From positions 1 to 64,000 of the forward strand of contig JACCET010000002.1 in assembly GCA_013416405.1 (NCBI GenBank): DNA of 64,000 nt, in the 5' to 3' direction. Positions 38,831-40,744 of the stretch are shown piece after piece. The notes beneath the pieces are model-generated. The model searched no databases and was not told where the DNA came from. It saw nothing but the letters and a program-made list of their open reading frames with translations. Position 1 is the first letter of the stretch. Each line of letters starts with the position of its first letter. The translations under genes and the position numbers were made by a program. Source of the DNA: Alcaligenaceae bacterium (GTDB taxonomy: Bacteria > Pseudomonadota > Gammaproteobacteria > Burkholderiales > Burkholderiaceae_B).

Positions 38831-38882
38831 CTTCTTTGCGCTGCAACAAAGAAGCCTTGCGGTAAAGCATGTTCAATAGAGG
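38831..38882 (+). promoter_or_regulatory. nirV leader element shared with nirK
   Basis: A 20-base block (38835-38854, TTTGCGCTGCAACAAAGAAG) is identical to one before nirK. At the same spacing a second conserved patch GTTCAATAGAG (38870-38880) follows, versus GTCCAATAGAG there. The upstream bases here extend the first block into a perfect eight-base-pair hairpin, CTTCTTTG with CAAAGAAG. It starts 89 bases before the nirV ATG. The shared register suggests common regulation; the binding factor is unknown. Confidence 0.55.
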
Positions 38883-38923
38883 TGTAGCGCCGGTTCTGCC
38901 GGCGAACATTTCAAGGTCAGAAT

Positions 38924-39826
38924 ATGCTTGCGCCCGCCAGAATCCTGTCACGAACACTGTTATTTGCTGCCGTAGCCGCCTTGGCGGCGGGCTGCGGCGC
39001 AGGCAGCGACAAGACTGCTGCCAACGTGGCCGATACGGTTGCTACTGAAGGCATGGTGGCCATACAGGCGGGCGAGCTGCACTATTACCCGCCCGGCGAA
39101 TACTTGAAAGGCGGCTATCCCGTCAGCCCGCCGCTCACACAGATCAGTTTCGACAGCGCGCTGTACATTATGCAGCGCCAGGTCAGCCAGGCTGAATTCA
39201 CGGCTTGCGTGCAGGCCAAAGCGTGCAAGCAGTTGGATAAAAGCCAACGCAACGCCTCCGACCCTGATCTACCAGTGGTGGGGGTCAGTTGGCGTGACGC
39301 CACCGACTACGCCGCCTGGCTATCGAATGAAACCGGGCACCATTATCGTTTGCCCAGCTTTGCCGAATGGGTGCATGCCGCCGGGCCGGGCTACAAAGAA
39401 GATATCGTGCTTGACTCCTTCGACCCAGCCGATCCGGCCCAGCGCTGGCTGGCTGAATACAAGCTTGAAACACAGCGCCAGACGGCGGTTGATGCGCAAT
39501 TGCGGCCCTTCGGCAGCTTTGGCCAGAACGAGGCCGGCATGCAGGATATGGTGGGCAATGTCTGGGACTGGACCGATACCTGCCACAGCCGCTACAACCT
39601 GGATATCAGCGACACCGCCAGCGACGCCGGCGGCGCCCGGAATTGCGGTGTGCGCGTGGTGGCCGGACCGCATCGCAGCGTGATTACCGATTTCATTCGC
39701 GACCCCAAGGGCGGGGCCTGCTCGGTGGGCATTCCGCCCAGCAATCTGGGCTTCAGGCTGGTGCTTGACGGCAGTGCGGGTGGCGCTGCCGAGCCCCGCC
39801 TGATGCAAAAGTTGGGTATCGGTTAG
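38924..39826 (+). CDS. nirV: NirV-like formylglycine-generating-enzyme-family lipoprotein
   Basis: 300 residues. A lipoprotein signal is visible (LLFAAVAALAAGC, with C the probable lipidated residue), placing it in the periplasm. The body is an FGE-sulfatase/SUMF1-like domain: MVAIQAGELHYYPPG, the SWRDATDYAAWLSNETGHHY region, RLPSFAEWVHAA, and DMVGNVWDWTDTCHSRYN near the C-terminal third. NirV proteins of this type accompany copper nitrite reductase genes in denitrifiers; their biochemical role is unresolved. It is convergent with the Crp/Fnr gene (four-base overlap at the stops) and shares a leader with nirK. Confidence 0.82.
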   Translation: MLAPARILSRTLLFAAVAALAAGCGAGSDKTAANVADTVATEGMVAIQAGELHYYPPGEYLKGGYPVSPPLTQISFDSALYIMQRQVSQAEFTACVQAKACKQLDKSQRNASDPDLPVVGVSWRDATDYAAWLSNETGHHYRLPSFAEWVHAAGPGYKEDIVLDSFDPADPAQRWLAEYKLETQRQTAVDAQLRPFGSFGQNEAGMQDMVGNVWDWTDTCHSRYNLDISDTASDAGGARNCGVRVVAGPHRSVITDFIRDPKGGACSVGIPPSNLGFRLVLDGSAGGAAEPRLMQKLGIG

Positions 39827-40539
39827 CCTGGCGCCTTGATGGTGGGCGCGCCTTCGGCAAGGCGTATCAGTTCGTTCAGATCCAGCACCACGATGCGCTT
39901 GCGGCCGCTGCTGACCAGGCCGCGTTCCTTCCAGGCGCTAAGCAGACGGCTGACGGTATGTAGTGTGGTGCCCGTCATTTCGGCGATGTCTTGCCGGGTG
40001 ATGGGAAAGTTGATCAGTATGCCTTCATCGGTCTTTTCGCCCGATTCGTCGGTAAGTCGCAAGATGGCACGCGCTACGCGTTGCTCGACCTCTTCGGTAG
40101 ACAGTTCGCGTATGCGCGAGTGGGCATCTTGCAGGCGTTGGCCCACGGTTTGCAGGGCATTGACGGCAAACAGGGGGTTGCCTGAAATGAACTGATCCCA
40201 TTCCGACGAGGGCCAGGCCAGCGCGATGCTTTCCTGGACGGCCACTGTAGAGGCTGGGTAGTGACTGCGCTGCATGGCCCGGGCAATGCCAAAGACGTCG
40301 CCGGGATTGACGTGGCGCACCACGACCTGTTCGCCTTCGGGCGTGACCTGCACGACTTTCAGGTGGCCGTGCAACAGTATAAAAAACTGAGCGGCGACTT
40401 CGCCTTGATGAAAGGCGGCTTCGCCGTCGGCCAGGCGGCATACTTGCGCGCTTTGCAGGGCAGCATCAAGCGCGGCGTCGGGCATGGCCTTGAAGAAATC
40501 AAGGTTTTTGATCAGCGTCCGGCTTAGCTGTTGTGACAT
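39823..40539 (-). CDS. Crp/Fnr-family regulator (Dnr/NnrR-like), probable nitric-oxide/denitrification regulator
   Basis: 238 residues: an N-terminal cyclic-nucleotide-binding-like beta-roll (about residues 15-120), a dimerisation helix and a C-terminal helix-turn-helix (ITRQDIAEMTGTTLHTVSRL). The recognition helix reads HTVSR where FNR-type proteins usually have ETVSR, so site preference may be altered. It lacks the N-terminal cysteine cluster of oxygen-sensing FNR, favouring a haem-based NO sensor such as Dnr or NnrR. It is divergent from nirK, with a TGAT-N4-ATCA site between them. Confidence 0.85.
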   Translation of the reverse strand: MSQQLSRTLIKNLDFFKAMPDAALDAALQSAQVCRLADGEAAFHQGEVAAQFFILLHGHLKVVQVTPEGEQVVVRHVNPGDVFGIARAMQRSHYPASTVAVQESIALAWPSSEWDQFISGNPLFAVNALQTVGQRLQDAHSRIRELSTEEVEQRVARAILRLTDESGEKTDEGILINFPITRQDIAEMTGTTLHTVSRLLSAWKERGLVSSGRKRIVVLDLNELIRLAEGAPTIKAPG

Positions 40540-40578
40540 GTGGGTTTCCTGCGGCGGGTTGTAGGCGTATGACCTTTG

Positions 40579-40617
40579 ATTCTAGCATCGGCCCCTTACA
40601 TTTTGTGATCTAAATCA
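40579..40617. promoter_or_regulatory. FNR/Dnr-type binding site upstream of nirK and the regulator gene
   Basis: TGATCTAAATCA at 40606-40617 is a perfect TGAT-N4-ATCA dyad, with flanking TT and TT extending the FNR/Dnr consensus (TTGAT-N4-ATCAA). It lies about 67 bases before the regulator start and about 170 before the nirK ATG. A minus-strand TAGAAT at 40579-40584 sits at about the right distance for class II activation of the regulator gene itself. Activation of nirK is also possible. Occupancy is an inference. Confidence 0.7.
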
Positions 40618-40694
40618 TTGATTCTTCGCAAGAGTCCAGGGGGATGGGGCGGGATCTTGTATCTACGTATAAACCCGAATAATCGCTCTCCGAG

Positions 40695-40744
40695 TTTGCG
40701 CTGCAACAAAGAAGGAAGTCCCGCGCCAGAGTCCAATAGAGCTA
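40695..40744 (+). promoter_or_regulatory. nirK leader element shared with nirV
   Basis: The 20-base block identical to the nirV leader lies at 40695-40714 (dyad TTGC-N3-GCAA at its core). The CCAATAGAG patch follows at 40732-40740 in the same register. It starts 91 bases before the nirK ATG, nearly the same distance as in nirV (89). It could be the binding site of a repressor or activator, or a conserved mRNA leader. Confidence 0.55.

Follow-up and report, generated by a model that had tools for sequence, protein, structure and literature searches.

Crp/Fnr activators in the class II position bind with the dyad centre at −41.5, and the signal in the described NnrR systems is nitric oxide. According to the comparative analysis in PMC1274295, the consensus is ctTTGcgnnnncgCAAag for NnrR in alphaproteobacteria and CTTGATnnnnATCAAG for DNR in several betaproteobacteria, a residue of the recognition helix (H in NnrR versus E) is tied to the base that is read, and the proteins analysed there are devoid of the FNR cysteine motif. 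In Bradyrhizobium diazoefficiens, as described in PMC6710368, the nirK site is treated as a FixK2 box, and nirK is activated by FixK2 in vitro; NO toxicity is named as the cause of the NnrR effect on nirK, and norCBQD as the one direct NnrR target known so far. NnrR and NirV are already listed for Achromobacter xylosoxidans NH44784-1996 (PMC3718787), and the open-licence papers searched yielded no account of NnrR boxes in front of nirV and nirK for Alcaligenaceae.

The window, that is, the whole 64-kb stretch of Alcaligenaceae DNA analysed here, carries nirV and nirK with a regulator gene between them, which is convergent with nirV and divergent from nirK (Table 1). The convergent nirV and nnrR genes overlap by 4 bases at their stops (39823-39826). 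Two identical 20-mers, TTTGCGCTGCAACAAAGAAG, are located at 38835-38854 on the nirV side and at 40695-40714 on the nirK side, and start 89 bases 5′ of the nirV ATG and 91 bases 5′ of the nirK ATG, respectively. Both are followed in register by a CAATAGAG patch (also written TNCAATAGAG), which reads GTTCAATAGAG and GTCCAATAGAG at equal distance from the respective 20-mers and includes the TNCAAT hexamers of Table 1. The original prediction of a leader element shared in register was confirmed both by re-reading the letters and by a genome search: the core pattern TTGCNNNGCAACAAAGAAG has only two exact matches in the 3.66 Mb genome, both at the nirV and nirK leaders; no site differs from it at one position and eight differ at two, against one for the reversed-pattern control. 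Within the window, three matches with up to three mismatches were found versus 0.65 expected, a number reached in 2 of 100 shuffles.

Table 1. Coordinates of the genes and putative control elements in the nirV-nnrR-nirK region of the window
Feature	Position	Strand	Basis
nirV, FGE-sulfatase/SUMF1-like domain protein, 300 aa	38924..39826	+	ORF and domain comparison
NnrR-type Crp/Fnr regulator, 238 aa, recognition helix TTLHTVSR	39823..40539	-	sequence comparison, tree
nirK, copper nitrite reductase with C-terminal cytochrome c domain, 490 aa	40786..42258	+	TIGR02376, 532.5 bits
Putative NnrR-type box of nirV, TTTGCG-CTGC-AACAAA, dyad centre 38842/38843	38835..38850	+	match to consensus ctTTGcgnnnncgCAAag (as given in PMC1274295)
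Extended perfect dyad CTTCTTTG-N8-CAAAGAAG around nirV box	38831..38854	.	sequence
-10-like TTCAAT of nirV, offset 37 from box start; putative +1 at about 38884	38872..38877	+	conserved spacing
Putative NnrR-type box of nirK, TTTGCG-CTGC-AACAAA	40695..40710	+	16-mer identical to nirV box
-10-like TCCAAT of nirK, offset 37 from box start; putative +1 at about 40744	40732..40737	+	conserved spacing

As the element is palindromic in more than one way, the symmetries have to be distinguished. The hairpin extension claimed near the nirV copy does exist as a perfect 8-bp dyad with arms at 38831-38838 and 38847-38854, and the nirK copy lacks this extended repeat. The TTGC-N3-GCAA dyad, which had been taken for the core, is present in both window copies but is not the conserved symmetry: it is kept in only 18 of the 106 family boxes, a set that by construction retains TTG-N8-CAA throughout, and the conserved dyad is the outer TTTG-N8-CAAA. 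The 16-mer common to both leaders differs from TTTGCG-N4-CGCAAA by two mismatches and from the DNR-type TTTGAT-N4-ATCAAA by three, and contains no TTGAT-N4-ATCAA. A dyad of the form ctTTGcg-N4-cgCAAag, which characterizes the NnrR regulon and whose consensus is alphaproteobacterial, is therefore found upstream of these denitrification genes.

Taken together with the comparisons below, we consider it most likely (a probability of roughly 85%) that nirV and nirK each have an NnrR-dependent class II promoter, the two being built alike and having the operator in the 20-mer.

Sequence comparison identifies the gene between nirV and nirK as one that encodes an NnrR. The regulator is 53-61% identical to plasmid homologues among the matches listed (60 of 1041) and 53-66% identical to alphaproteobacterial homologues among 80 of 575 confirmed loci, and the latter are its nearest relatives outside its own family among the matches listed. 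It adjoins nirK and nirV in two of the three plasmid stretches (Rhizobium etli and Ensifer), the third (Jiella) being devoid of an annotated nirK. The LHTVSR recognition helix is shared by all 56 family regulators and the three plasmid regulators, and HTVSR is invariant in an alignment of 19 proteins, whereas the other Crp/Fnr proteins of related genomes whose helices are readable have E at the position of the NnrR histidine. The protein has a single cysteine (residue 34), and the ligands of an FNR-type cysteine cluster are absent. In a quick tree of 45 rows, none of which is an experimentally studied NnrR, the 39 NnrR rows (23 alphaproteobacterial, 14 betaproteobacterial and 2 paralog) were separated by a branch with an SH-aLRT of 96 from six other Crp/Fnr proteins, two of which have very long branches; L104, L131, L288 and L208 were left out of this tree, and L193 and L194 were included.

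We then compared the locus within the family. NirV is present in 75 of 268 family genomes, and the 75 stretches of relatives were annotated together with the window, giving 76 loci. Of these, 56, the window among them, have an adjacent regulator of >50% identity; a paralog pair of about 40% identity is present in 9, and the other 11, from 10 genomes, are regulator-free. In all 56 loci of the regulator class, nirV is convergent with nnrR and nirK is divergent from it. Sites with at most two mismatches to TTTGCG-N4-CGCAAA were found within 240 bases of the start in 44/56 nirV and 43/56 nirK leaders, and the perfect sequence occurs in 6 of the 112 leaders. The composite of TTG-N8-CAA, a 22-base spacer and TNNAAT is more uniform, being present upstream of nirV in 54/56 and of nirK in 52/56 loci of this class. 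It is also specific, as 119 of its 122 matches in all loci on both strands are in leaders and only three are in the remaining 1.47 million or so positions. The exceptions at nirV are L083, with a broken CAA half-site, and L099, which has the box but CCTAAT downstream; those at nirK are L078, with a perfect box but CACAAT, and L090, L091 and L112, in which the NirK match covers the C-terminus only.

The distance between the two parts hardly varies. Counted from the first base of the 16-base box, TNNAAT begins at an offset of 37 bases; with a narrower −10 pattern, the offset is 37 in 63 of the 64 nirV rows and 35 of the 40 nirK rows that match, the remainder being at 36 and the other rows giving no match. 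As many leaders stem from one genus, those ≥80% alike were removed, and in the 36 nirV and 29 nirK leaders that remained, the TTG, CAA and AAT columns were still near-invariant and their offsets constant. Nearly all regulator-class leaders of the relatives keep TTG-N8-CAA with the spaced TNNAAT. Conservation of the leaders extends up to three bases past the −10-like element, and in both window copies this element, TYCAATRGA (38872-38880 and 40732-40740), departs from TATAAT at the second and third positions.

The regulator-free loci provide a natural comparison. In these 10 family genomes with nirV, one of which is 78% and another 89% complete, the best genome-wide match to the regulator is only 23-27% identical. 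The composite was found at 4 of 11 nirV and 0 of 9 nirK leaders in their loci. Of the four nirV composites, those of L128 and L129 are NnrR-like, and in L120 and L121 the loose rule let in sites of the TTGAT type. One regulator-free genome, G186, has the FNR-type TTTGATGTAAATCAAG upstream of nirV. The presence of NnrR and that of the box are therefore clearly associated for the spaced module and less cleanly so for bare boxes.

Several regulator-free leaders harbor related sites. In G119 and G120 (L128 and L129), where no NnrR was found, the NnrR-like TTTGCGCTAGCACAAG stands at nirV with the standard spacing in both genomes, and the nirK leaders contain TTTGCGCTAGCGCAAT (one mismatch) and TTTGCGCCAGATCAAA (two mismatches) without the standard spacing. 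Half-and-half sites with three or four mismatches occur in the nirK leaders of six further regulator-free loci, of the kind of TTTGCGTTAGATCAAT in five and TTTGATCCAGCGCAAT in one; they look like an NnrR half joined to an FNR/DNR half. TTTGCG-N4-(A/T)TCAAT or nearly this sequence is present in L117, L121, L123 and L125, and the variants CTTGCG-N4-ATCAAT and TTTGAT-N4-CGCAAT are present in L120 and L127, respectively. The NnrR-like boxes of G119 and G120 and the half-and-half sites suggest that another Crp/Fnr protein can probably use related sites.

The paralog class (L133-L141) comprises nine genomes of the genus labeled g4, in which a nirV-like gene is convergent with an NnrR-like gene and no nirK match lies within the stretch. 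The regulator helix reads YTASR in 8/9 of them, L133 being the exception, and boxes such as TTTGCC-TTGG-CGCAAG are located upstream of the nirV-like gene with the standard spacing in 9/9. In the two stretches that were read, L133 and L137, the neighbours include a quinol-type NO reductase-like ORF and a 513-aa NorR-like ORF, names that derive from the sequence alone.

To what extent the box occurs elsewhere in the genome was assessed with two patterns. TTTGYN6RCAAA gave 27 sites versus 6 for the reversed control, and TTGYN6RCAA followed by a 22-base spacer and TNNAAT gave 4 sites versus 1, two of the four being the nirV and nirK leaders. A third composite site, TTTGCGTTGCAGCAAA, lies outside the window (G000:C22:366582-366597) near a coaD-like gene; the corresponding site is a composite with TNNAAT also in G210 and a bare box in G208 and G209. 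No link to denitrification was seen at the coaD-like gene, where the genes are named by their sequences. In the leaders of norC, NnrS and 8/9 COX1-family loci, no NnrR box with up to three mismatches was found. One 3-mismatch site is located downstream of a 761-aa NO reductase-like ORF. The norC leader of the same genome (C44) carries TTAATGTCGATCAA, one mismatch from the FNR/DNR box (L008:1679-1692), and a looser palindrome, TTTGTTGCTGTACAAA, is present about 450 bases upstream of norC (L008 1505). These leaders, together with the part of the 27 loose sites that we inspected, suggest that the NnrR regulon would be narrow. An FNR site, ATGATTTAGATCAC, is located 79 bases before the nnrR start, but no comparable site was seen in the relatives, and we do not claim an FNR cascade onto nnrR.

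The first option of the original prediction was that nirV and nirK answer to a common factor, which is not the Fnr-type protein encoded between them. Joint control is supported, but the exclusion of that protein is contradicted by the conserved dyad, which shows the geometry of Crp/Fnr sites, agrees with the NnrR consensus given in PMC1274295, and tracks the Crp/Fnr gene in between with two exceptions. A closer competitor is a second Crp/Fnr protein of the genome, of the FixK, FNR or DNR type, that would act on the box by itself or compete for it with NnrR. In Bradyrhizobium, the nirK site from which FixK2 activates contains the same 14-mer (PMC6710368); thus, the box alone does not name the protein, and it is co-occurrence that does. 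The genome of the window holds at least two further Crp/Fnr proteins, and the boxes retained without NnrR in G119 and G120 and the six half-and-half nirK leaders also fit a second user. Nevertheless, the spaced box follows the adjacent NnrR (54/56 and 52/56 loci versus 4/11 and 0/9 in the regulator-free class), the readable helices of the other Crp/Fnr proteins carry E in place of the histidine that is tied to the base read (PMC1274295), and G186, which is without NnrR, has a TTGAT-type box at nirV. On balance, we regard exclusive or competing use by another Crp/Fnr protein as unlikely.

The similarity of the two leaders might instead mean that one leader was recently copied to the other gene, as 20 identical bases are followed by a matching patch in register. 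Outside the constrained columns, however, the window leaders are 30% identical, which is at background level: in the unconstrained columns of 42 comparable loci, mean identity is 27.8% within a genome versus 27.5% between genomes, and the window leaders are 40-83% identical to their own orthologues in five relatives. A recent duplication, which the original prediction had offered as its second option, is therefore very improbable, although the promoter may have been copied in the distant past. A polyhydroxybutyrate-type PhaR site was also suggested on the basis of the TTGC-N3-GCAA dyad, a superficial symmetry that PhaR sites of PHB genes presumably share with the window boxes. The genome does contain a PhaR gene and the dyad is in both leaders, but the low retention of this symmetry in the family (18/106) distinguishes the boxes from PhaR sites, and TTTGC-N3-GCAA, with 115 strand-counted genome matches versus 23 for the reversed control, is no specific mark; we give this idea almost no credence. 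Nor is it plausible that a hairpin in the RNA leader acts on the transcript. The perfect 8-bp inverted repeat at the nirV copy would allow it, but the nirK copy is without the extended repeat, and the conserved −10-like element at a fixed distance downstream of the dyad implies that the dyad would lie outside the transcript. Readings with sigma54 or an ECF sigma factor were set aside, as the spacing and the dyad fit a class II Crp/Fnr promoter.

Control by NnrR at two class II promoters would operate as follows. If TNNAAT serves as the −10 element, the dyad centre is 29.5 bases before the hexamer and falls at −41.5, which corresponds to a class II site. Each 20-mer would hold the NnrR box, that is, the operator of the regulator encoded between its two targets. 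The conservation, spacing and regulator family observed here, as well as the co-occurrence of gene and box, point to an NnrR dimer, presumably activated by a nitrogen-oxide signal, that most likely binds TTTGCG-N4-AACAAA in each leader. The bound dimer would be centred about 41.5 bases upstream of the predicted transcription start, overlap the −35 region and recruit RNA polymerase to the weak −10 element (TYCAAT) in the style of a class II activator, so that nirV and nirK would be switched on together from two separate promoters. A weak point of this model is the −10-like element, which is without the usual A at the second position. Overall, the repeat pair appears to be an ordinary, well-supported NnrR-type control element that was first misread because of a chance inner symmetry.

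These results give a probable regulator of nirK and nirV to a large group of betaproteobacterial denitrifiers, the relatives of Pollutimonas/Pusillimonas and Achromobacter, in contrast to the other betaproteobacterial genera for which a 2005 comparative study described DNR. They also yield a precise promoter model consisting of the 16-base box, 21 bases and TYCAATRGA. The split layout, with a matched promoter for each gene, hints naturally that NirV has to be produced along with NirK. Tentatively, and with somewhat more doubt than confidence, we speculate that the Alcaligenaceae NnrR is a local and nearly dedicated nirV/nirK switch, and that an ancestral nirK-nirV unit was split, after which selection rebuilt an equally spaced promoter at nirV, so that production of the two proteins stayed coupled. 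If so, NirV would be a functional partner of NirK and not a passenger.

Among the known systems, the DNR regulon of other betaproteobacteria and pseudomonads shares with this locus the Crp/Fnr family, NO-responsive control of nir genes and the TTG-N8-CAA geometry. It differs in the half-site, TTGAT versus TTTGCG here; as to the helix, it is other Crp/Fnr proteins of the family that show E at the position of the NnrR H. FixK2 boxes, described as TTGA/C-N6-T/GCAA in PMC6710368, are similar to the extent that the nirK site reported there, read on the other strand, is identical to the 14-mer of the two leaders, but FixK2 is a Crp/Fnr protein different from NnrR.

The closest counterpart is the alphaproteobacterial NnrR regulon, which is alike in the box, in the regulator clade with its LHTVSR helix and in the target nirK. 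In Rhizobium etli and Ensifer, nnrR likewise adjoins both nirK and nirV, the rhizobial order being nirK, nirV, nnrR. In the alphaproteobacterial loci compared that have both genes, however, nirV lies downstream of nirK on the same strand. Six of the alphaproteobacterial loci (L241-L243, L246, L247 and L249) have nnrR divergent from nirK with a box seen only before nirK, and none of these six has TNNAAT at the Alcaligenaceae spacing. In the Alcaligenaceae, by contrast, nirV is on the opposite side of nnrR from nirK and has its own box. The advance over the described systems is accordingly modest: the type of control element is already known, and what is new is an Alcaligenaceae nirV that stands apart from nirK with what appears to be its own matched promoter.
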